A stretch of 23,907 nt of DNA from a virus, in the IMG/VR virus record IMGVR_UViG_3300025697_000904, positions 1 to 23,907 of that record; one strand, written 5' to 3'. Numbering within the stretch: position 1 is the first letter of the stretch; every line of letters starts with the position of its first letter. The translations under genes and the position numbers were made by a program. The notes under the pieces are model-generated. The model had not been told where the DNA came from. It was given only the letters and a program-made list of their open reading frames with translations, and did not search any database. Shown piece after piece: positions 7,425 to 16,402 of this stretch.

Positions 7425-8594
7425 TTAAGCGAATAATCCTCTTTCTTCTTCTGGGTTAGCTGATCCACCGAATACTCTCAAGTTTCCACTTGTATCAACT
7501 TGTGGGGTACTGGCTATCGGCCCTGCTTGTGGTAGTGAAGGATTAAAGCCTGACACTCGTTGAAGGTTGGCCTTTACCTCTGCAATAGAATTGCTGTTAG
7601 TAATTGCCCACTGATCTAGTGCCTGTCTTCTACTGGAAGCCTCTTGGTCAATTTGGCTAAGTTTGGCCATAGCTTGATCTAACAATGATCTTGAAAGATT
7701 AGCCAAATCTGTACCTTTTTGAAGTTGACCACTAGCTTGAGCTTGTCGGACTTGCTGTTGAGCCGAAGTGAACCAGTCGGCTACTTCTCCCAATTTTATG
7801 TCCCTGTCACTTGCTAGTCTTCTTTCCTCATTATCGACTGTAGCTCGTAGGTCGGTCTCCCTCTTGCCTATCTCGGCAACTATGTCAGAAGTTTGACTCA
7901 TCACACCACCCCTAGCTTTAGTACCAAGTTTGGTCAAAGCATAAGAGTACTGATTGGCGGCTGAACTATCTCCTGCTCCTCGTGAGCCAAGATAAATGTT
8001 CCCTGCCATCATGGAATTGCGGATATTCTCCGTCAAGTTCTTTAAGTTCTTCTCCTGATTGGTCATGGCTTTGTCTTCTTGAGTCTGTAAAGCACCCAAG
8101 CCTTGTTGTTCTTGAAGTGCTAAGTCGGATTGTCCTTGAGTGTACTGACTGCCAACGATACCTTCTCTGGCTGTTTGTTGAGTCCCAAGACTAGCCATTT
8201 GTTCATCTAGGGTTTTGAAGTAAGCGTCATAGCCGGAGGTAATGTCACCCCGTACTCTTTCCTCTGCAGCAAGTCTGGCCTGTTCTGCGGCGACATAAGG
8301 GTCTGGTGGACCACCTGTGGCGGCAAAGTCTGCTCTTGCCTCTGGCTCGCCCCATCCAGCATATTGAGACATATCAAAACCACCCCCACCTGAGGAAGTG
8401 CTTGCACCCTGAACACTACCACCATAAGGGGCTGGTTGTGCGGAAGGGGTTATCGACTGAGGCCAAGCTGATTGTGCTGGTGCTTGGTAAGGCGCCGGTT
8501 GTGCCGACGGAGTTGTAGATTGAGGCCAGGAACTTGTTGGCGTGGGAACTGGCGTGGCGTAAGGATTAGTGTTACTACTTGATTGTGGCCACAT
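7425..8594 (-). CDS. low-complexity / coiled-coil virion protein, probable ejection-type protein (389 aa)
   Basis: The start at 8594 has a textbook GAGGAGGT site and follows the stop of the 69-aa gene by one base. Residues 1-75 are Pro/Ser/Gln/Ala-rich with two near-identical 14-residue units (WPQSTTPSAQPAPY and WPQSITPSAQPAPY, 21 residues apart), and the first residues MWPQSSS look like a third, partial unit. Residues about 105-340 are long helices rich in Gln, Ala, Glu and Lys with heptad-like spacing. The C-terminus is again loose. This resembles the smaller internal or ejection proteins encoded next to a giant internal protein in podoviruses. No enzyme motif is visible. Role is inferred from position and composition. 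Confidence 0.6.
   Translation of the reverse strand: MWPQSSSNTNPYATPVPTPTSSWPQSTTPSAQPAPYQAPAQSAWPQSITPSAQPAPYGGSVQGASTSSGGGGFDMSQYAGWGEPEARADFAATGGPPDPYVAAEQARLAAEERVRGDITSGYDAYFKTLDEQMASLGTQQTAREGIVGSQYTQGQSDLALQEQQGLGALQTQEDKAMTNQEKNLKNLTENIRNSMMAGNIYLGSRGAGDSSAANQYSYALTKLGTKARGGVMSQTSDIVAEIGKRETDLRATVDNEERRLASDRDIKLGEVADWFTSAQQQVRQAQASGQLQKGTDLANLSRSLLDQAMAKLSQIDQEASSRRQALDQWAITNSNSIAEVKANLQRVSGFNPSLPQAGPIASTPQVDTSGNLRVFGGSANPEEERGLFA
8424..8528 (-). repeat. in-frame coding repeat, WPQS(T/I)TPSAQPAPY twice
   Basis: Residues 23-36 (8528-8487) and 44-57 (8465-8424) of the 389-aa protein differ at one position only. Units begin 63 bases apart. Such repeats arise by slippage or unequal crossing over and tend to vary in number between relatives. 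Confidence 0.8.
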
Positions 8595-8821: not shown

Positions 8822-8847
8822 AAAAAAACCGCAGAATTAACTGCGGT
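8822..8847 (-). terminator. intrinsic terminator at the end of the glycan cassette (stem 7, U7)
   Basis: ACCGCAG (8828-8834 on the plus strand) pairs with CTGCGGT (8841-8847) around a 6-base loop, giving a perfect 7-bp stem on the minus strand followed by seven U. It lies about 45 bases after the stop of the last glycosyltransferase and 17 bases before the ATG of the next gene. It is the best terminator in the window. Confidence 0.85.
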
Positions 8848-8853
8848 CTGACG

Positions 8854-8868
8854 GGGGATTGGTTCCCC
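8854..8868 (-). promoter_or_regulatory. leader hairpin 1 upstream of the 69-aa gene (5-bp stem, 5-base loop)
   Basis: On the minus strand GGGGA pairs with TCCCC around a 5-base loop. It stands 15 bases after the -10 box and 6 bases before the terminator hairpin, matching the arrangement at 3438-3452. Confidence 0.5.
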
Positions 8869-8883
8869 ACTTATACCTTACTA

Positions 8884-8912
8884 ATATTAGACTTATTTTG
8901 TGGGACTGTCAA
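8884..8912 (-). promoter_or_regulatory. strong sigma70-like promoter, TTGACA-17-TAATAT
   Basis: A perfect -35 box TTGACA (8912-8907) lies inside the last codons of the 366-aa glycosyltransferase gene. After a 17-base spacer comes TAATAT (8889-8884), within the gap. Transcription would begin near 8877 and run straight into two hairpins. It is the only clear promoter for the unit 8805-3492. Confidence 0.65.
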
Positions 8913-9993
8913 GGACACGAAGGAAAAACTCAGCGTAAGCATCCACCCCATCCTTCACCTGCCAATCCTTTTTCGTGGTCTTAAAAGCTTCCTCTCCCAT
9001 TGATTTCCTGTGTTCCTTGTCGTCTATCAGTCTCTTAATTGACCGATACCACTCGATCTCTGTGCTTGCTAAAAACCCATTCTTCCCCTCCTCGATGACA
9101 TTTTCGTATTGTCTCATTCTCTGCCAGACACCAGGTTTCTTGGCGGTGCTACCCTCTATGAACTTGATTGAGGATTTGCACTTGTTGTAAATATTGTCCG
9201 TTAAGGGGGTAACTAGAATGTCTACCTGATCCATGAACACGGGGAACTTCTCACGCACCCACTTATAAAGGTCAACGTCTCCGAAGCCGTGGGTGTACCT
9301 TTGACCCCACCTTTTCTTGTACTTGGGAATCAACGCACCAACCGTCATAAAACTTACATTGGGATATTCCTTTAAGATTCGGTCTAGCCCTTTGTTAAAT
9401 TCGTCGTTTTGTAAGTCCTTGAAATGTGAACTAGAGCCGAAGTGGAGTAACTTAATATCAAGGGTGTCTTTGAACGGGGACCGGTGGCTGTAAAGTTTAA
9501 GATTAACCCTATTAGACATGACTTTTATCCTAGAGGGGTCTTTGCCTGTTTTGTGCATGATTACATTCCGAAGGTACTTGTTGGTGGTAGTAATGAAGTC
9601 AACCTCTTTAGAAATGGCGGTGACGTTGTTTATCCCCTCGCTTCCTTTCTTATAAGCCTGATAAGCCGTGTTGTCCTCGGCCACATCCCACAAATCATCG
9701 TCCATATCTAAAACAATCTTTCTCTTATTCTTCCTGGCCATACAACCCATGATAGCGAAAGCCCAAGCGTTGGTGGTGTAGTTTAAAAAGAGTATGTCGT
9801 GTTCTGCCGTTACCTTAATCCAATCCATCTTCTTGTTTAGCTTGGGATCGTACATGGTAACTTTGAATTTAACCTTACCGTCTGTCCAACCATCTAAAGC
9901 TTCCATAGGTTGAACTACACGGGCAAAATCAACACCACTTGTACGTTCAACGGCTGCGTGACTTGGCATTGCAAAAACCCGAATTATTTTCAT
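8893..9993 (-). CDS. GT4-like glycosyltransferase (366 aa), last gene of the glycan cassette
   Basis: The 366-aa protein has the two-domain layout of GT-B glycosyltransferases. Residues 94-104 (VLDMDDDLWDV) are a segment often seen in group 1 transferases, which move sugars from nucleotide donors. Residues 181-220 (KLLHFGSSSHFKDL and NVSFMTVGAL) form the start of the donor domain. Residues 257-290 (VDILVTPLTDN then SSIKFIEGSTAKKPGVW) match the acidic donor-binding region of GT4 enzymes, with the K276 and E280 pair. ATG at 9993 overlaps the previous stop by 4 bases (ATGA). No signal peptide or membrane segment, so it is probably cytoplasmic. Donor and acceptor cannot be told from sequence. Confidence 0.82.
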   Translation of the reverse strand: MKIIRVFAMPSHAAVERTSGVDFARVVQPMEALDGWTDGKVKFKVTMYDPKLNKKMDWIKVTAEHDILFLNYTTNAWAFAIMGCMARKNKRKIVLDMDDDLWDVAEDNTAYQAYKKGSEGINNVTAISKEVDFITTTNKYLRNVIMHKTGKDPSRIKVMSNRVNLKLYSHRSPFKDTLDIKLLHFGSSSHFKDLQNDEFNKGLDRILKEYPNVSFMTVGALIPKYKKRWGQRYTHGFGDVDLYKWVREKFPVFMDQVDILVTPLTDNIYNKCKSSIKFIEGSTAKKPGVWQRMRQYENVIEEGKNGFLASTEIEWYRSIKRLIDDKEHRKSMGEEAFKTTKKDWQVKDGVDAYAEFFLRVLDSPTK

Positions 9994-10739
9994 TGTGTAG
10001 CCTCAATAAACTGATCTAAACGGAAACTAAATAAGGTTCTTAATGCTTGGTAGTGTTCTCTAAATTTCGCCGTGTCTAGTTTAACATTTTCCTTTATCCC
10101 CCAACTAATACCGTTCATACCGGGTTCGTAATCCTCAAACTTCTTCTTCGTATAGTCAGATGGGATGATAACAATACGACAACCACACAATCTGGCAATT
10201 TCTGTCATGGCGGTACGATGATCGTAGCAATACATAACACTACACTCGTTTAACATGTCTGCTAGTGCTTGTTGGTCTTGGGCAAACTTTCTATCAATAG
10301 GTATGCACTCTTTTGGGTGAACGCTAGAGCTAGGCTTCTTGCCAAAGAATACACACTTTTTGTTTCGTTTCTTCTTCTGGTCTTTAAACAGGTGCATATT
10401 AAGTATGGGTAGAAACATTGTGTGTTCTGGGTCTGTGTTATAAACCAACTTGGAAAAGCTATATATAAGGTCTGTGTCCTCAAACTTAACGGGGCCAGTA
10501 ATTCCATTAGAGGCCATCTCTCCTGGTGGGGCGAGTATATAGCGAACTACTGTGTTGGCTTCGGCTGGGTTGCCATGAGATATTTCTGGGTAAATAGCCA
10601 CAAAGTCTTTGTTCTCGAACTTAGCATTTAAGAAAGCTATCTGGCCTTTGGCTAGCAACCAACCATATAAACCATAGAGGACTCTTATCCCTCCTGATAC
10701 TGGAGAAAATGGTGGGGTGATAATGCTATAAGGTCTCAA
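9990..10739 (-). CDS. glycosyltransferase-like protein (249 aa)
   Basis: The N-terminus (residues 6-24, ITPPFSPVSGGIRVLYGL) carries the Gly-rich loop typical of the acceptor domain of GT-B transferases. Residues about 125-200 (KCVFFGKKPSS, then CSVMYCYDHRTAMTEIARL and GCRIVIIPSD) look like the donor domain, with EIARLCGC in the place where GT4 enzymes have their conserved Glu. At 249 aa it is short for the family (usually 330-400), so part of a domain is missing or compact. The start is TTG at 10739, overlapping the previous stop (TTGA), with GGAG just upstream. It may be a true transferase or a partner of the next gene. Function is moderately sure. Confidence 0.65.
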   Translation of the reverse strand: MRPYSIITPPFSPVSGGIRVLYGLYGWLLAKGQIAFLNAKFENKDFVAIYPEISHGNPAEANTVVRYILAPPGEMASNGITGPVKFEDTDLIYSFSKLVYNTDPEHTMFLPILNMHLFKDQKKKRNKKCVFFGKKPSSSVHPKECIPIDRKFAQDQQALADMLNECSVMYCYDHRTAMTEIARLCGCRIVIIPSDYTKKKFEDYEPGMNGISWGIKENVKLDTAKFREHYQALRTLFSFRLDQFIEATQ

Positions 10740-11479
10740 AGTTCTCCATACTTGACGCTTCGACCTTGATAACCTTGCTTGATTAACCAGTCAGTTACTT
10801 CCTTCGTGAAACCCATCTGTTCAAACTGTAACTTGGGTAGGGCCACTTTCCCTTTAGCGTGGTGGTAAGCCTTTACCTGTTCGTCCATACACATTAACTT
10901 GTCATCCTCTATATAAAACCTTGCTTCCATACCTAAGCTCTTACAACCCAAATAGTTCTTATCTTTGTCCCAAATCAGCTTTTTCATCTTTTTAACAGCT
11001 TTGTTACGATACCAGACCGTGTTTAAAACGTCATTCTCTTGTCGGGTATATAACATGGCGTTCTTGTTTGCTTTTTCCCAAATGTCCCAAAACCCCTTGT
11101 TGGTTGATCCAACTAGCCCTGCTTGGACGTACATCTTCTCATCTATGTCTTCAAAGGTAGCATTCTCATAAATGTTGTAATTCCATACCGCCCCTACTTC
11201 CCAGTCGGTATCTAGTATCTCTGTCAGTCTGCCCGTAATGACTGTATCTGCATCAATGTTGATAACTCTGTCATAGTCTGCAACAAGCAACTTAGCAAAG
11301 GTAGGTTTGGCCATGTAGAAGTTAATATCGTTATCTTTAAACACCTTGTCTACCATGTCCTGTCTAAACACAACCAAATCTATGTCGGGGTGGTACTTCT
11401 TAAAGGAATTGATTAGTACATGTGTACCCACACTAAAGTAGTAGTCATCTGATACGATACTAAAAAATACTGTTTTCAT
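10736..11479 (-). CDS. GT8-like (glycogenin/LgtC type) glycosyltransferase (247 aa)
   Basis: The protein starts MKTVFFSIVSDDYYFSVG, a GT-A nucleotide-sugar fold opening, with helix VLINSFKKYHPDIDLVVF. The metal-binding DxD motif is at residues 76-78 within VINIDADTVITGRL. Residues 122-150 (KMYVQAGLVGSTNKGFWDIW) resemble the family's acceptor-side segment, and KAYHHAKGK near residue 224 matches the late His-rich motif that closes on the donor phosphate. The size is normal for this class. The enzyme would add a hexose from UDP-sugar to a glycan in the cytoplasm. ATGA overlap with the FkbM gene. The exact sugar is unknown. Confidence 0.82.
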   Translation of the reverse strand: MKTVFFSIVSDDYYFSVGTHVLINSFKKYHPDIDLVVFRQDMVDKVFKDNDINFYMAKPTFAKLLVADYDRVINIDADTVITGRLTEILDTDWEVGAVWNYNIYENATFEDIDEKMYVQAGLVGSTNKGFWDIWEKANKNAMLYTRQENDVLNTVWYRNKAVKKMKKLIWDKDKNYLGCKSLGMEARFYIEDDKLMCMDEQVKAYHHAKGKVALPKLQFEQMGFTKEVTDWLIKQGYQGRSVKYGEL

Positions 11480-12129
11480 CTAGTAAATAAAACAATAACA
11501 GCACTCGACTCGTATCTTCGTGCTTTGTAGCCAAGTCTCATCATATATTGAACTAACTCCATAAAGTTAGGATGGTGGAACTCAATCTCAATAGCTTTTA
11601 TCCTATCGGCTACTTTCTTAAACCCCTTACTTCTAAGTATCATGTCTTCTGCACCCTCTACATCGAATTTACAGAAATCAACTGTGTCAATCTTGTTTTC
11701 CTTCATAAAGGTATCAAAGGCATAAGTCTTACATTTGTTTCCACCCTGTCCGTAGTCGTTGGTAAGTGAGTTACAAGTCAGGTTGTTGTCGAGATAGTTT
11801 ATAGTCATCTCTCCGTCCTTGTCAGCTATGGCAGCCTTGAATATCTCTACATTGTCCCATTTGTTAAATTCTTTATTCTTCTTTAGTGCCTCAAAGTGCA
11901 TCTCTGATGGTTCAATAGCATAAAGCTTTTTACAGAAAGTTCTCATGTATTGAGTGACTACTCCTATATTAGCTCCCACGTCGATAACAACCATGTCTTC
12001 CTTTTGGTTGAATATATCAACATATACTCCTTCAAAGTAAATCTCGTTGTAGATATAGGGAATGTATAAGCTGTCGAATGGGATTGGTTTCTTCTCTGTC
12101 CCTGCGGGATAAAATAGTGCTTTTAGCAT
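11476..12129 (-). CDS. FkbM-family SAM-dependent methyltransferase (217 aa)
   Basis: Residues 47-60 (VVIDVGANIGVVTQ) are motif I of the Rossmann methyltransferase fold, followed by an acidic residue at the end of strand 2 (LYAIEPSEMHFEAL). Residues 148-165 (VDFCKFDVEGAEDMILR) match the FkbM signature KxDxEGxE. FkbM enzymes O-methylate sugars in polyketides and surface glycans. The length is usual. The start ATG overlaps the LicD-like stop by 7 bases. In this cassette it would cap or modify a sugar hydroxyl and might hide a receptor. Family is clear, substrate is not. Confidence 0.88.
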   Translation of the reverse strand: MLKALFYPAGTEKKPIPFDSLYIPYIYNEIYFEGVYVDIFNQKEDMVVIDVGANIGVVTQYMRTFCKKLYAIEPSEMHFEALKKNKEFNKWDNVEIFKAAIADKDGEMTINYLDNNLTCNSLTNDYGQGGNKCKTYAFDTFMKENKIDTVDFCKFDVEGAEDMILRSKGFKKVADRIKAIEIEFHHPNFMELVQYMMRLGYKARRYESSAVIVLFTR

Positions 12130-12704
12130 AGTTTTGGTAATTTATAATTATCTAAATCATTAGTACAGACCAGATTGTTAGCGTTGACAGCCCAGTTCCA
12201 TGTAGCCTTTGGTGTTCTCCAATCTTCTCCAAAGTAGTGTGATAGCCACTTTTCAGGATTAGCTGGTGTGTTAAAAGTCCTGCCAAGATATTTGATTTTA
12301 CCAAACTTCTTTAGTTGATATTCAGGCCAAACAAGGTTTAAGTTACTTCCACCATGTTCGTACCTAATCCCCTTCTTTTTCCAAAACTTAGGCATCAGGG
12401 TAAAGTAGTCAGCATCCCAACATCTCTCTTTGAGTTGTGGGCCAAAGAAAGTAAAGTAGTTCTCATACTCATCGTTGGTATCGTTTCTAAAGTATTCATT
12501 GTCTTTTTTAAGTTGTTTATTAAACTTATTGGTAACATCTTCTGCTCGCACCCCTATGTTCAGTTCCCTATCAAAAGTGCTAGTTTGTAGGATATAACCA
12601 CTTCTTATAAGGTGTAATAGGGACGAACCAATGAAAAAGAACTCAACCCCATACTTTTTGAAGTAATCATCTACTCTCAACAAATACTCATCAAATGGTG
12701 TCAT
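12123..12704 (-). CDS. LicD-like / nucleotidyltransferase-fold protein (193 aa)
   Basis: The N-terminal region (residues 22-52: FFFIGSSLLHLIRSGYI and FDRELNIGV) matches the LicD fold: the GTLLG-like Gly-Ser turn followed by a WDDDIDIG-like acidic strand. Here the strand reads DREL-N, so the usual DxD metal site is changed, with only D45 and E47 left. The C-terminal third (YLGRTFNTP, then WLSHYFGEDWRTPK) is the conserved LicD end. LicD proteins move phosphocholine, or in related cases other phospho-groups, from a CDP-linked donor to a glycan. Its neighbour, a TagD-like cytidylyltransferase joined by a 4-base overlap, could make that donor. The activity of this changed active site is uncertain. 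Confidence 0.7.
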   Translation of the reverse strand: MTPFDEYLLRVDDYFKKYGVEFFFIGSSLLHLIRSGYILQTSTFDRELNIGVRAEDVTNKFNKQLKKDNEYFRNDTNDEYENYFTFFGPQLKERCWDADYFTLMPKFWKKKGIRYEHGGSNLNLVWPEYQLKKFGKIKYLGRTFNTPANPEKWLSHYFGEDWRTPKATWNWAVNANNLVCTNDLDNYKLPKLC

Positions 12705-13102
12705 TTTAATCTTGCCCTCCTTAGTGTTGAAGAAATCTCGTCGGTGTGTGGGAAGTAAATAAACTTAACCCCATCAGACTCTAGTCCTCTTTCATAATCA
12801 ATCCAGTTTTCGTCATCATACCAATCGTCACCCACAAACACTTTGTCAAAGCCCAACTTGTCCCATTCATCTATCTTGTTTATTGTGGTTTGTGGAACGG
12901 CCACGTCTACATACTTAATTGCCCTTACTATCTCTATCCTTTCTTTAAAGGGTACTAAAGCCTTCTTACCCTTCTCCTTAACTAATTTATCAGTAGAAAC
13001 CCCTACGATTAGTCTGTCACACAAGGCATTGGCACTTCTAAGGATGTTTAAGTGTCCTATATGAAACAAATCAAATACTCCTGTTGTGTAGCCAATTACC
13101 AC
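12701..13102 (-). CDS. TagD-like glycerol-3-phosphate (or related) cytidylyltransferase (133 aa)
   Basis: The protein has the full nucleotidyltransferase pattern of small cytidylyltransferases: GVFDLFHIGHLNIL at residues 8-21 with the HIGH motif at 14-17, FKERIEIVRAIKYVD near 53-66, VFVGDDWYDDENW near 89-101, and ISSTLRRARLK at 123-133 in place of the TagD ISTT end. Length 133 aa equals TagD (about 130). These enzymes join CTP with a polyol phosphate (CDP-glycerol) or a sugar phosphate. The start is GTG at 13102 preceded by AAGGAG, chosen because an overlap of 7 bases with the previous gene fits the cassette. The exact sugar is not fixed by the sequence. Confidence 0.86.
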   Translation of the reverse strand: MVIGYTTGVFDLFHIGHLNILRSANALCDRLIVGVSTDKLVKEKGKKALVPFKERIEIVRAIKYVDVAVPQTTINKIDEWDKLGFDKVFVGDDWYDDENWIDYERGLESDGVKFIYFPHTDEISSTLRRARLK

Positions 13103-13932
13103 CCTATCTCCTTGTTAAGTCTTAAAAAGCCTTCAACGGGCCAAGGTGTAGGGAAACCAATCTTTTCTTTATATACTAAGTCTAGTGGTAAGTATTTAGT
13201 CGCAATCTCTTTTAGGATAGGTTTATCTATCTTCTGTCCCATAGGGGCTTCCCACATTATTTGTGAGATGCCATTTTCTATATAAGGAAACTCTATCTCC
13301 ATCCCTGCTGTATGACAAGCGTTCACGGCCCTGTCAATTAATGCTGGTGTGTGCATTTCTATTAAGAAACGATACATACCCCACTCTTGCCATTTCTTAA
13401 AAGGGATTTCAACCCCAGTCTCAACTTGTAAGTATCTGCTTCTAAAAGTTCCCTCGTCTGTCATAAAATTCCCTGTCAATAGTTTTGTATAGCCACCAAA
13501 CAATCCGTCTGCTCCCTCTCCTGATGTTATAGTATCAAACCCATCCTTGCTGGCCTGTTTCGCCATTAAGTATAAACATGGTTCATTGGGGTGTAGTCCA
13601 TCGCCTTTGTTTCTAATTAAAAGCTCTATGGTAGCCAGGTATGCCTCTCTTGTAATTAAAACGGGAATCAGTGGTATACCAAGATGTTCTGCTACTCTCT
13701 CCGCAAAGTGTAGTTCGGATTTACCCTCTGTAAAAACTGCCGTATAGGCCACTTCGGGTTTGTTTATGGCTGCTAACAAACTACTATCTAGCCCTCCACT
13801 TAAAAATAAGGCCTCACTCTTGCCTTTTAGCCGTTCTTCAATATCGTCAACATCGGCTCTCTTAACTTTGTCATTAAAATCAATAAGAGATTTGTACTGA
13901 GTTTTTGTGTATCTGAAAGCTAAGTAATCCAT
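13096..13932 (-). CDS. asparagine-synthase-like PP-loop enzyme without glutaminase domain (278 aa)
   Basis: Residues 42-56 (LFLSGGLDSSLLAAI) are the PP-loop SGGLDSS that binds ATP in the AsnB/beta-lactam synthetase superfamily, and residues 137-149 (SGEGADGLFGGYT) are the second signature GxGxDxxFGGY. The order and spacing match the C-terminal half of asparagine synthase. The N-terminal Cys glutaminase domain is absent. Ammonia would need another source or the reaction may be different, for example an amidation or a related ATP-driven ligation. Related stand-alone proteins are known in surface polysaccharide clusters. The gene begins TAATG, overlapping the previous stop by one base. Role in the glycan is inferred. 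Confidence 0.82.
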   Translation of the reverse strand: MDYLAFRYTKTQYKSLIDFNDKVKRADVDDIEERLKGKSEALFLSGGLDSSLLAAINKPEVAYTAVFTEGKSELHFAERVAEHLGIPLIPVLITREAYLATIELLIRNKGDGLHPNEPCLYLMAKQASKDGFDTITSGEGADGLFGGYTKLLTGNFMTDEGTFRSRYLQVETGVEIPFKKWQEWGMYRFLIEMHTPALIDRAVNACHTAGMEIEFPYIENGISQIMWEAPMGQKIDKPILKEIATKYLPLDLVYKEKIGFPTPWPVEGFLRLNKEIGW

Positions 13933-14309
13933 TAAAATAAGTCCTTATATTCTTTTCTATTAGAGCTATCTTTCCAAGAACAGGTCTGTGGTGTTCGCCA
14001 AGAGTCCCCATACCTATGAGCCAAACATGCTTCTGGGTCAGATGGTACTTTAAACTTCCTACCTAAATAGTCTATTGTTTTCCATGTCTTCTTCGGGTAA
14101 TACTTTGGATCCCAGACCAAGCAATGATCGCCTTCTACGTTTTGAAAACAAACCCCTTTTTCCATCCAAATAGGATTCAGGGCTATTCTCGGTTCGTTGG
14201 CGTTAATTGATCCACTTGTTGTCATATACATTTCAGCATGAGGCTTGGGGCCTTTATGAGTATGTTTAAATCTTGATCCAAGTCCTGCCATTGGTATTAT
14301 TATATTCAT
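13932..14309 (-). CDS. chimeric sugar-nucleotidyltransferase N-terminus fused to LicD-like C-terminus (125 aa)
   Basis: Residues 1-24 (MNIIIPMAGLGSRFKHTHKG, then PKP) are the nucleotide-binding opening GxGxRF...KP of sugar-phosphate nucleotidyltransferases. The remaining 200 or more residues of that family are missing. Residues about 45-112 (KGVCFQNVEGDHCLVWD, DYLGRKFKVPSDPEAC, HRYGDSWRTPQ) align with residues about 109-173 of the LicD-like protein encoded at 12123-12704. So this is a short fusion of the start of one enzyme family and the end of another, and neither part has a full active site. Overlaps 4 bases with the previous gene and 1 with the next, so the frame is kept in the operon. 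Either a decayed fusion or a small accessory protein. Confidence 0.75.
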   Translation of the reverse strand: MNIIIPMAGLGSRFKHTHKGPKPHAEMYMTTSGSINANEPRIALNPIWMEKGVCFQNVEGDHCLVWDPKYYPKKTWKTIDYLGRKFKVPSDPEACLAHRYGDSWRTPQTCSWKDSSNRKEYKDLF

Positions 14310-14830
14310 TTTCTCCTCAAACTTATAAACGAGGGGCCATTAAGTTCAAATGCTTCGCTAGTGGCAATCGGGGCTTCCTCTTTAGATTCAGGAAAGTATT
14401 GTCTAATACTGGGAAAACAATCTAACACTCTCTGTGCATCTGGGCTTTGGTGTGTCCAACCATCTTCTTTATAGTCATCATCCCTACCAGCACCTACTAG
14501 AATTACCTTAATCTTGTCGTGGTCAATATAGTTACGAATGAACTCAAAAGGTCTATAAAGGGTAAAGTTGGTAATCGAGTAAAAGACAGGTATCTTGCCC
14601 TGTAGTGCTAGTCCTACACAAATGCCTACCCCTGCTTGTTCTGACGCACCTACGTTTATGACTCTTTCAGGGAAGTCTTCAAAGTGTGAGTCAAACATCT
14701 TGTAACCTAAGTCTGCCGTAACTAGCCATATATCCTCATTACTAGCCATTTCTTTATATAAGGCTCTACCAAAGTAACCCCTCATTGATTCATGTAATGG
14801 ATAGTCTTTTAGTCTTTCTTTACTTTTCAT
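14306..14830 (-). CDS. transketolase, C-terminal (pyrimidine-binding) subunit, short (174 aa)
   Basis: Residues 34-70 (IWLVTADLGYKMFDSHF, then RVINVGASEQAGVGI) give the pyrimidine-domain signature with the catalytic Glu at position 64, which activates the cofactor thiamin diphosphate. Residues 72-100 (GLALQGKIPVFYSITNF) continue the fold. The family's usual third, C-terminal domain is missing. With the preceding gene it forms a split transketolase of about 380 aa in total, much smaller than the 620-680 aa single-chain enzymes. Transketolase moves a two-carbon keto group between sugar phosphates. Start ATG overlaps the previous stop by 4 bases (ATGA). Confidence 0.87.
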   Translation of the reverse strand: MKSKERLKDYPLHESMRGYFGRALYKEMASNEDIWLVTADLGYKMFDSHFEDFPERVINVGASEQAGVGICVGLALQGKIPVFYSITNFTLYRPFEFIRNYIDHDKIKVILVGAGRDDDYKEDGWTHQSPDAQRVLDCFPSIRQYFPESKEEAPIATSEAFELNGPSFISLRRK

Positions 14831-15447
14831 TTTGTTATCTCCTTAAACATTTTTTCATCTAATACAACGTAATGACCGTCTATTCCTTGTATAAACTCTG
14901 GTAGATGGAATAGATTGGGTGCGACTACCATTGTTGGGAAGAATGACTGTAGCCTGTGTTGTAAGTATTGTGTGTCTACTGTACCTAGTGCTGACAATCC
15001 GTTAGCTATAACCGTGATCCTCAAGTTCTCCAATCTCTGTTCGGCTGCAATCCTTAAAGCCTCCCATACTGAGCCTTCTGCACAAGCCCCATCGCTAGTG
15101 ACCAAATAAACGTTAGTTTCTCTATCAGCTAGTGCTAACCCTACTGCAACCGTTTCTGCCTGTCCTAGACTACCTCCTGATACCCAAACACCATGTTCCA
15201 TATCTCTTTCAGCGTGTGTTCCATATCTCTCTGCCATTTCCTCTGCATTACATAGTCCGTGTTTCTCTAAAACTACCCAAAGGGCTAGTGCGGCATGGGA
15301 GTTGCCCAGTACAAAGGGTTCGTCCTTTTTTCGTATCTCGTAAATGCGTTCTATGGTTGGGAGGGTGGTTAGGACTGAGGACAAATGACTCCTTTTCTGC
15401 TTATAGGAAATCTCTACTGCTCGGCGTTCAAGTTTACCTAGACTCAA
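14827..15447 (-). CDS. transketolase, N-terminal (diphosphate-binding) subunit (206 aa)
   Basis: Residues 118-149 (SDGACAEGSVWEALRIAA ending in VIAN) are the thiamin diphosphate motif GDGx(24-27)N, with S in place of the first G. Residues 48-55 (GNSHAALA) match the SKGH-A-L segment and residues 90-98 (SGGSLGQAE) match the GSLGQG segment of transketolases. The start is TTG at 15447 with GAGGAG five bases upstream; it overlaps the end of the epimerase gene by 14 bases. The two subunit genes are coupled, which should give equal amounts. Split enzymes of this type occur in bacterial and archaeal genomes and in sugar clusters. In this cassette it probably makes an unusual sugar precursor, which is an inference. 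Confidence 0.87.
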   Translation of the reverse strand: MSLGKLERRAVEISYKQKRSHLSSVLTTLPTIERIYEIRKKDEPFVLGNSHAALALWVVLEKHGLCNAEEMAERYGTHAERDMEHGVWVSGGSLGQAETVAVGLALADRETNVYLVTSDGACAEGSVWEALRIAAEQRLENLRITVIANGLSALGTVDTQYLQHRLQSFFPTMVVAPNLFHLPEFIQGIDGHYVVLDEKMFKEITK

Positions 15448-16201
15448 CCATCTCCTCGATTGAATCTCTAAGTGACTTCTCTGGTTTCCACCCGAACCTT
15501 CGTGATCTGAAATTGGTCGAAACCCAGTGTTTGGTATCGTAGGGTCTTAAATGGGGTACTTCTGTTAGATTGGCTTTCCTGTGGGTGACGTCCTCAACTA
15601 GCTCTTTAACTTCTTCGTTGGTGTGTTTCTTCCCCCATCCTAGTTCGTATATCCCTCTAGCACCGCTTGTAGCCAAGTTAATTAATCCATTGGTAACGTC
15701 GTCTACGTCTATAAAGTCGTGTGAGGGGGTGGGGACGAAATCCATGTGTTCTCCGTCAAGACAAGACCTTATAAGGGTAGGAATCAAATGCTCTTTCTGC
15801 TCTCCTACTCCGGTAACTGAAAAAGGTCTGACTATACATACAGGGACGTTGTGTTTCTCCATAACCGCTAGTAATATCTCTTCGGCGGCTTTCTTTGTCC
15901 GTGAGTACATAGTCTGCATCGGCAACTTAACAGAAGACGTACTCATAAAAACAAAGCACTTAATATCTGTGGATAGTTGACTGACCATGTGAGCGATGTC
16001 TAAAACATTGGCTTGGACGATCTTCTCGTCCTCGGTGTGGTGAGACATGTTCCCATAAGCGGAAAGAAAGTAGAAGTAATCAAAAGGCAATAACTCGGTA
16101 GTCCGTATCTCTTTGTGAGGGATTGTAGTAACTCCCTCTAGTTTAGCCAGTAGATTTCTTCCTATAAAACCGCCGGCTCCGGTTTCGTATATTCTCGACA
16201 T
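15434..16201 (-). CDS. NAD(P)-dependent sugar epimerase/dehydratase, extended SDR (255 aa)
   Basis: Residues 8-14 (GAGGFIG) are the Rossmann NAD-binding loop GxxGxxG. Residues 87-103 (STSSVKLPMQTMYSRTK) hold the catalytic Ser and the YxxxK pair (Y99, K103). Residues 119-126 (VCIVRPFSVTG) match the RPxxVYG region and DFIDVDDVTNGLINL near residue 165 is the second family signature. It acts on nucleotide sugars (epimerase, reductase or dehydratase cannot be told apart). At 255 aa it is shorter than the usual 300-330. First gene of the cassette, with a TATAAT box 9 bases upstream of its ATG and no ribosome site at normal spacing, so the message may be nearly leaderless. Confidence 0.86.
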   Translation of the reverse strand: MSRIYETGAGGFIGRNLLAKLEGVTTIPHKEIRTTELLPFDYFYFLSAYGNMSHHTEDEKIVQANVLDIAHMVSQLSTDIKCFVFMSTSSVKLPMQTMYSRTKKAAEEILLAVMEKHNVPVCIVRPFSVTGVGEQKEHLIPTLIRSCLDGEHMDFVPTPSHDFIDVDDVTNGLINLATSGARGIYELGWGKKHTNEEVKELVEDVTHRKANLTEVPHLRPYDTKHWVSTNFRSRRFGWKPEKSLRDSIEEMVESR

Positions 16202-16210
16202 CCTAAGAGG

Positions 16211-16219
16211 ATTATATCA
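16211..16219 (-). promoter_or_regulatory. candidate cassette promoter, extended -10 TGATATAAT
   Basis: TGATATAAT on the minus strand (16219-16211) is a perfect extended -10, and an A-rich run lies just upstream, which can aid binding like an UP element. No good -35 is seen. The ATG of the epimerase gene begins 9 bases after the -10 box, so transcription would start only a few bases before the ATG. It differs from the other promoters in having no hairpin leader. Confidence 0.5.
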
Positions 16220-16255: not shown

Positions 16256-16402
16256 TCAAGACTTGCTCTGCCTGTTTTCCTGCAAAGCCCCTTCAACTTC
16301 AGTAGCGGTAATGATCCCACCAGCATCTACAATGTTTACTTTTGACGCTTTCTTGTTTATTACATCAAACTTGCCTGTGATTGGGTTTAGCGTAAGACTC
16401 AT
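16256..16402 (-). CDS. small virion-associated protein of the tail-fibre-like class (48 aa)
   Basis: The gene starts with ATG at 16402 in an ATGA overlap with the 106-aa gene and reads MSLTLNPITGKFDVINK, then KVNIVDAGGIITATEVEGAL. The last segment (xADAGGxxTATxVEGALQE) is a common short motif in phage appendage proteins, where it precedes a helix and fibre. Here the frame ends after QENRQSKS. In the -1 frame a further 22-25 codons stay open to 16212 and read like protein (GKQAEQVLIGLLPKPK, then EKKKVI), so the true product may be longer by frameshift or an indel. Function is a guess from motif and place. Confidence 0.65.
   Translation of the reverse strand: MSLTLNPITGKFDVINKKASKVNIVDAGGIITATEVEGALQENRQSKS

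Follow-up and report, generated by a model that had tools for sequence, protein, structure and literature searches.

A conserved sugar-gene unit with a split transketolase among the virion genes of a probable Patescibacteria phage lineage

Virion glycosylation in mycobacteriophages involves soluble, phage-encoded glycosyltransferases whose genes lie near virion genes, and in mycobacteriophage Maravista two glycosyltransferases suggest glycosylation of the capsid (PMC11256854). Among phages tied to Patescibacteria, single nucleotide-sugar genes (galE, rmlB, rmlD, manA, gmd and rmd) have been counted in a study whose main text does not mention transketolase (PMC12911398). Here we describe a sugar unit of 11 minus-strand open reading frames (ORFs; 16201-8893) in IMG/VR record IMGVR_UViG_3300025697_000904, a phage genome fragment of 23,907 bases that was analysed whole and is called the window below. 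Like the mycobacteriophage enzymes, its transferases are soluble and encoded near virion genes, but here there is a whole pathway, with sugar-precursor enzymes, methylation and a phospho-decoration block, in another phage group and known from genes alone. The Patescibacteria-tied phages were reported with genes counted singly; in the window a split transketolase belongs to a unit of many genes that is fixed in the lineage.

Three further systems invite comparison. Prophage serotype-conversion (Gtr) cassettes, through which a phage may likewise alter a glycan at a surface, rely on a membrane flippase and a membrane transferase; unlike them, the window's unit has neither a membrane flippase nor a membrane glucosyltransferase. 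With phage morons it shares a promoter-like element and terminator of its own and accessory-type genes set between virion genes, but it is fixed in its lineage rather than present or absent, and its composition is not unlike that of its flanks. Chromosomal sugar clusters of Patescibacteria carry a triad of an epimerase and the two transketolase chains (TKn and TKc), in many of them in the same order as here, although there the neighbours are glycosyltransferases of family GT2, a methyltransferase and large, probably membrane-bound proteins, and the FkbM-GT8-J-K genes of the phage unit are not adjacent. In the literature we found no paper with 'split transketolase' and none with FkbM plus phage sugar genes.

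Patescibacteria phages are, to our knowledge, almost absent from culture. A sugar pathway common to phage, prophage and bacterium offers a sequence marker by which phages known only from uncultured material can be linked to Patescibacteria, and the unit is a concrete case of a virus lineage for which a complete glycan pathway is a core module and not passing cargo. Because the pathway leads to predictions about the surface of the virion or of the host, its purpose becomes testable. The features of the unit are as follows, in the order of transcription:

16211..16219, minus strand: promoter-like element TGATATAAT, 9 bases ahead of gene A, of the extended -10 type and with no good -35 box
15434..16201, minus strand: gene A, predicted NAD-dependent epimerase/dehydratase (SDR), 255 residues (PF01370, 5e-17)
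14827..15447, minus strand: gene B, predicted transketolase N-terminal, thiamine diphosphate (ThDP) chain (PF00456); kept in all members
14306..14830, minus strand: gene C, predicted transketolase pyrimidine-binding chain (PF02779, 3e-20)
13932..14309, minus strand: 'gene' D, an in-frame deletion scar joining a sugar nucleotidyltransferase start to a LicD-like end, by comparison with genome G737
13096..13932, minus strand: gene E, asparagine-synthase-like enzyme, synthetase domain only (PF00733, 6e-33)
12701..13102, minus strand: gene F, TagD-like cytidylyltransferase (PF01467)
12123..12704, minus strand: gene G, putative LicD/FKRP-like transferase, by fold similarity of a low-confidence model to FKRP
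11476..12129, minus strand: gene H, FkbM methyltransferase (PF05050; TIGR01444 above cut-off)
10736..11479, minus strand: gene I, GT8-like glycosyltransferase (PF01501, 6e-4, sub-cut-off); kept in all members
9990..10739, minus strand: gene J, putative glycosyltransferase of a new family; kept in all members
8893..9993, minus strand: gene K, GT4 glycosyltransferase (PF13692 above cut-off; phrog_7162 glycosyltransferase)
8826..8849, minus strand: intrinsic terminator after gene K, a 9-bp stem followed by a T run

The core of this unit (epimerase, split transketolase, FkbM, GT8-like, J and GT4) is a constant feature of the lineage. Relatives were fetched with three non-sugar anchors (TerL, capsid and gene '668'), and in all eight of the genomes so obtained that span the site (G001-G006, G736 and G737) the order A-B-C-variable stretch-H-I-J-K, then '389', occurs at the same place. 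Genomes G012, G013 and G014, which were added via sugar-gene scans and are biased by that search, also carry the core there, for a total of 11 out of 11 spanning relatives; no cassette-free collinear relative was found among the spanning genomes. Exact terminal repeats of 114-127 bases in G001, G002, G013 and G736 are consistent with complete genomes of 36.6-39.9 kb. In other records, the fragment L039 has a methyltransferase and an apparent glycosyltransferase after a long fibre gene and ends too soon to judge, the more distant L193 has other sugar genes (GT4-like, cytidylyltransferase) at the same site, and transketolase is absent from 17 records that share TerL but mostly have different structural genes.

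The first-pass annotation had described the cassette as inserted as a moron and had named, among its checks, presence or absence in collinear relatives and composition. Neither bears the description out, and the outcome that it said would refute the idea is largely what is seen: the core is in every spanning relative, where only D-G, single genes, an HNH gene and an upstream fibre gene vary, and in codon usage the 11 ORFs match the flanking genes (z -1.3 to 1.9). The window shows a mild dip in guanine-plus-cytosine (GC) content in C-J (0.37-0.41, against 0.44 in most flanking genes), and there is no cassette-wide GC break in the window or its relatives. Between G001 and G002, the ratio of nonsynonymous to synonymous substitution rates (dN/dS) is 0.016-0.175 for cassette genes, as against 0-0.30 for structural genes other than '389'; by this measure the cassette genes are under purifying selection. 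Mean pairwise identity of the cassette proteins is 53-63%, in line with 62% for portal and 52% for scaffold. Gene-to-gene distance correlations are low even among structural genes (portal-capsid 0.00), and for that reason cannot decide whether cassette and virion genes were inherited jointly. A DNA-level search of the phage collection found nothing, nor did a tblastn search with the GT8-like protein, and tblastn with the capsid gave only matches below 60% identity.

The enzyme assignments differ in firmness from gene to gene. Pfam cut-offs are passed for PF01370, Transketolase_N, Transket_pyr, Asn_synthase, CTP_transf_like, FkbM and GT4 PF13692, so that the epimerase, split transketolase, asparagine-synthase-like, TagD-like, FkbM and GT4 families of the first-pass annotation stand. 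Gene A has the motifs GxxGxxG and YxxxK, invariant in the 11 members compared. In genes B and C the ThDP-binding and pyrimidine-binding domains lie on separate adjacent genes, as in a split transketolase, and the PDB entry that C matches best is a split transketolase from Carboxydothermus, through its C-terminal chain (6yaj, 2e-17); the SDG..N region and a catalytic-type Glu (GASEQA) are kept in the B/C pair of all members, and the C-terminal transketolase domain is absent from the pair. The motifs of both the predicted epimerase and the predicted transketolase are intact. Gene E is 68-71% identical to its counterparts in L116 and L115. Gene F matches ethanolamine-phosphate and glycerol-3-phosphate cytidylyltransferases in the PDB and falls short of the TIGR01518 equivalog for TagD glycerol-3-phosphate cytidylyltransferase (86.5 bits, cut-off 165.4), and is thus best termed TagD-like, not assignable as a TagD equivalog. 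Gene G has no Pfam match; its best 13 chains in Foldseek are all FKRP (E 0.02-0.2), from a low-confidence model (mean predicted local distance difference test score, pLDDT, 53), and the LicD-like label given earlier is tentative. Of the three glycosyltransferases first annotated, the GT4 call for K is firm, I misses the curated PF01501 cut-off (20.0 bits, against 24.3) and is GT8-like only, and J has no match in Pfam or PHROG and a poor structure prediction with no usable fold match, and is assigned a putative role by context only. A hydropathy scan found no membrane segments in the proteins of the unit, and no lipid-carrier transferase, flippase, polymerase or membrane protein was recognised among its genes.

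All ten junctions overlap (14, 4, 4, 1, 7, 4, 7, 4, 4 and 4 bases, in order), in exact agreement with the 1 to 14 bases first noted. The 11 ORFs then counted as genes are all present, but only ten look intact, because D is a fusion scar. In G737 the corresponding stretch holds an intact 242-residue nucleotidyltransferase and an intact 191-residue LicD-like gene, with a methyltransferase between them. The start of D resembles that nucleotidyltransferase (MNIIIPMAGLGSRF), and its residues 19-125 are 47% identical to the C-terminal 107 residues of the LicD-like protein; since the two parts are separate intact genes in G737, D is read as an in-frame deletion scar, one common to L082 and L084, and was rejected as a working enzyme. 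D-E-F-G is the patchy part of the unit, with E-F-G found only in the window's population, G003 and G013. Other members have extras: a TylF-type methyltransferase, a hexapeptide transferase, a second FkbM and, in G003, an MT-A70 methyltransferase gene inside the unit between J and K (L116:15141-15689).

The transcription signals suggest that the unit is a fixed, autonomous transcription unit, and in this respect the moron picture stands. The candidate promoter first marked at 16211-16219 is the element listed above, and in 10 of 12 members gene A is preceded, at a distance of 9-26 bases, by a promoter-like site (an extended -10, or -35 and -10 boxes), with p values of 0.004-0.055 each against random 90-base stretches of the same genome. 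This recurrence is only suggestive, because AT-rich intergenic DNA inflates such scores; over the whole region, consensus promoter matches are at chance (18 found, 21.1 expected). The terminator first placed at 8822-8847 was confirmed, with its stem at 8849-8826, and terminators follow gene K in 6 of 10 genomes.

Several lines of evidence link the unit to Patescibacteria. When genomes were scanned with the J family, the single match came from Candidatus Levybacteria; its contig bears chromosomal genes (judged by eye as mreB- and topA-like) together with a long island of sugar genes. Proteins of the sister phage G012 resemble those of the island (GT8 67.5%, GT2 47-64%, FkbM 56% and J 53% identity), and the G012 GT8 is 53% identical to the GT8-like protein of the window. 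Close TKn relatives (E below 1e-58) occur in 17 of 281 genomes of the Levybacteria genome's class, where TKc adjoins TKn in nearly all and an epimerase is often present too; the chromosomal TKc proteins are 43-53% identical to the window's. One of the 17, G590, contains an apparent prophage (contig C2, about 459-487 kb; L142-L144), in which a tyrosine integrase (PF00589) next to chromosomal genes is followed by epimerase, TKn, methyltransferase, TKc, terminase and portal and, further on, by GT, GT8 and FkbM genes near the capsid region; its unlabelled virion genes were named by eye and position. In a tree of TKn plus TKc the phages form one clade (0.995), with prophage G590 as sister (0.947) and chromosomal G601 next (0.932). 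The tree and the host scans sampled Patescibacteria only, which makes a host-derived origin of the phage transketolase genes in that phylum likely rather than proven. Capsid relatives were found in 2 of 380 Patescibacteria genomes, both distant, one of them with a GT2-like gene two genes after the capsid. From these comparisons, the lineage probably infects Patescibacteria.

We tentatively favour, with slightly less than even confidence, reading the unit as a long-fixed, host-derived glycan operon whose product most likely decorates the virion, in a phage lineage that probably infects Patescibacteria. An unusual activated sugar would be produced or remodelled by the epimerase and split transketolase. 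The GT8-like, J and GT4 proteins, as three soluble transferases, would assemble a short oligosaccharide, and FkbM would methylate it. In the window phage, a phosphate-linked group may come from the TagD-like enzyme and the LicD/FKRP-like transferase, and an amide from the asparagine-synthase-like enzyme. Attachment of the glycan would take place in the cytoplasm, with virion proteins as acceptors, so that the particle would carry a coat of host-like sugars. A cytoplasmic virion-protein acceptor is favoured because the unit has no membrane segments and no recognised lipid-carrier transferase or flippase; also counted for it are the fixed place among virion genes, the soluble transferases encoded with them and the Ser/Thr/Pro/Ala-rich virion-type sequence nearby (the '389' N-terminus and the fibre-region proteins of L111). 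A fuller proposal, in which Patescibacteria phages wear a host-type virion glycan coat made by a lineage-wide, host-derived pathway built around the split transketolase and the new GT family J, while the fast-changing D-G genes alter the outer decoration, we regard as less likely than not. Several points weigh against a decorated virion: attachment to it, and any product, are inferred from the genes; the bacterial homologues lie in envelope-sugar clusters, which fit a role at the host surface equally well; the unit seems to own a promoter, so that late co-expression with virion genes is not implied; and the host link is indirect, with only Patescibacteria searched in number and capsid relatives as few and distant as described.

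The main rival, which we consider quite possible, is that the enzymes alter the envelope glycan of the infected cell via host machinery. Such a change might, for example, shut out competing phages, stop progeny from re-adsorbing to debris or influence how the small host holds on to its partner cell. This rival gains from the A-B-C homologues in chromosomal sugar clusters of the Levybacteria genome's class, with their GT2, methyltransferase and membrane-protein genes, from the epimerase and transketolase genes beside the integrase of prophage G590, from the unit's own promoter-like element, and from Patescibacteria phages reported with O-antigen sugar genes, read as adhesion aids (PMC12911398). 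The unit, however, has no gene for a membrane protein, flippase or polymerase, it keeps a fixed position among virion genes, and most members have no recognisable integrase, which makes lasting lysogenic conversion unlikely for them. Virion glycosylation and host-coat change, the two purposes first proposed, are thus the two that remain, still by inference. It is improbable that the enzymes act instead on phage DNA, as in a sugar-modified base, or on a free metabolite such as a nucleotide sugar feeding phage replication. In its favour, all the transferases are soluble and an MT-A70 methyltransferase lies inside the G003 unit; against it, MT-A70 occurs in one member only, and glycan assembly is the typical setting of FkbM, TagD and LicD-type enzymes. 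DNA hypermodification in particular was rejected, the core having no base-modifying enzyme. Least probable of all, and by a long way from likely, is a recent moron, the whole cassette lately inserted into a phage that worked without it; the terminator, the promoter-like element and the GC dip in C-J would suit it, but the core at one site in all spanning relatives, purifying selection, a single phage clade and flank-like codons do not, and for the core this conservation refutes it. For E-F-G, with their restricted distribution, such a reading can still hold.

The surroundings of the unit agree with the placement between virion genes first described. On the minus strand the order is TerS, TerL, portal, scaffold, capsid, three small genes and the sugar unit, followed by '74', '389', a 1,307-residue LPD38 protein, an SU10-type adaptor, '668' and a tail gene. 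Terminase_3, LPD38 and SU10 adaptor domains identify the virion neighbours, and the capsid is a distant relative of the head proteins of Bacillus phage Page type. Most relatives have a tail-fibre-like gene between '106' and A, of which the window retains a remnant:

16256..16402, minus strand: tail-fibre-like gene stub, 48 codons, with an N-terminus similar to fibre starts in L095-L097, L099 and L100

In L083 (near 4751), from the same population as the window, the end of '106' is missing, along with most of the stub, through a further deletion. Downstream, '389' (7425-8594) begins with a Ser/Thr/Pro/Ala-rich repeat and has by far the highest dN/dS between G001 and G002 (0.59). Fibre-region proteins at L111:2518-6787 contain long Ser-Pro-Ser-Ala repeats, plausible candidate O-glycosylation targets, beside extra sugar genes (UDP-sugar dehydrogenase, GT2).

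Mosaicism is evident among the relatives. Most structural and sugar genes of G001 and G002 (L088 and L091) share 93-99% identity, yet TerL differs strongly between the two (28% and 65% identity to the window TerL), which points to terminase exchange. L084 has a cassette identical to the window's, with portal and scaffold only 82-90% identical, and L085 has a capsid 97% identical to the window's and diverges right after it.

Selfish elements also appear to visit the sugar unit. A gene for a 164-residue HNH/NUMOD3 endonuclease (L001:11040-11534), not present in the window, lies exactly between E and F, at the window junction 13096-13102, in a locus otherwise 99.9% identical to L082. Gene K of L115 (L115:13898-16039) contains an intein-like insertion with a LAGLIDADG domain.

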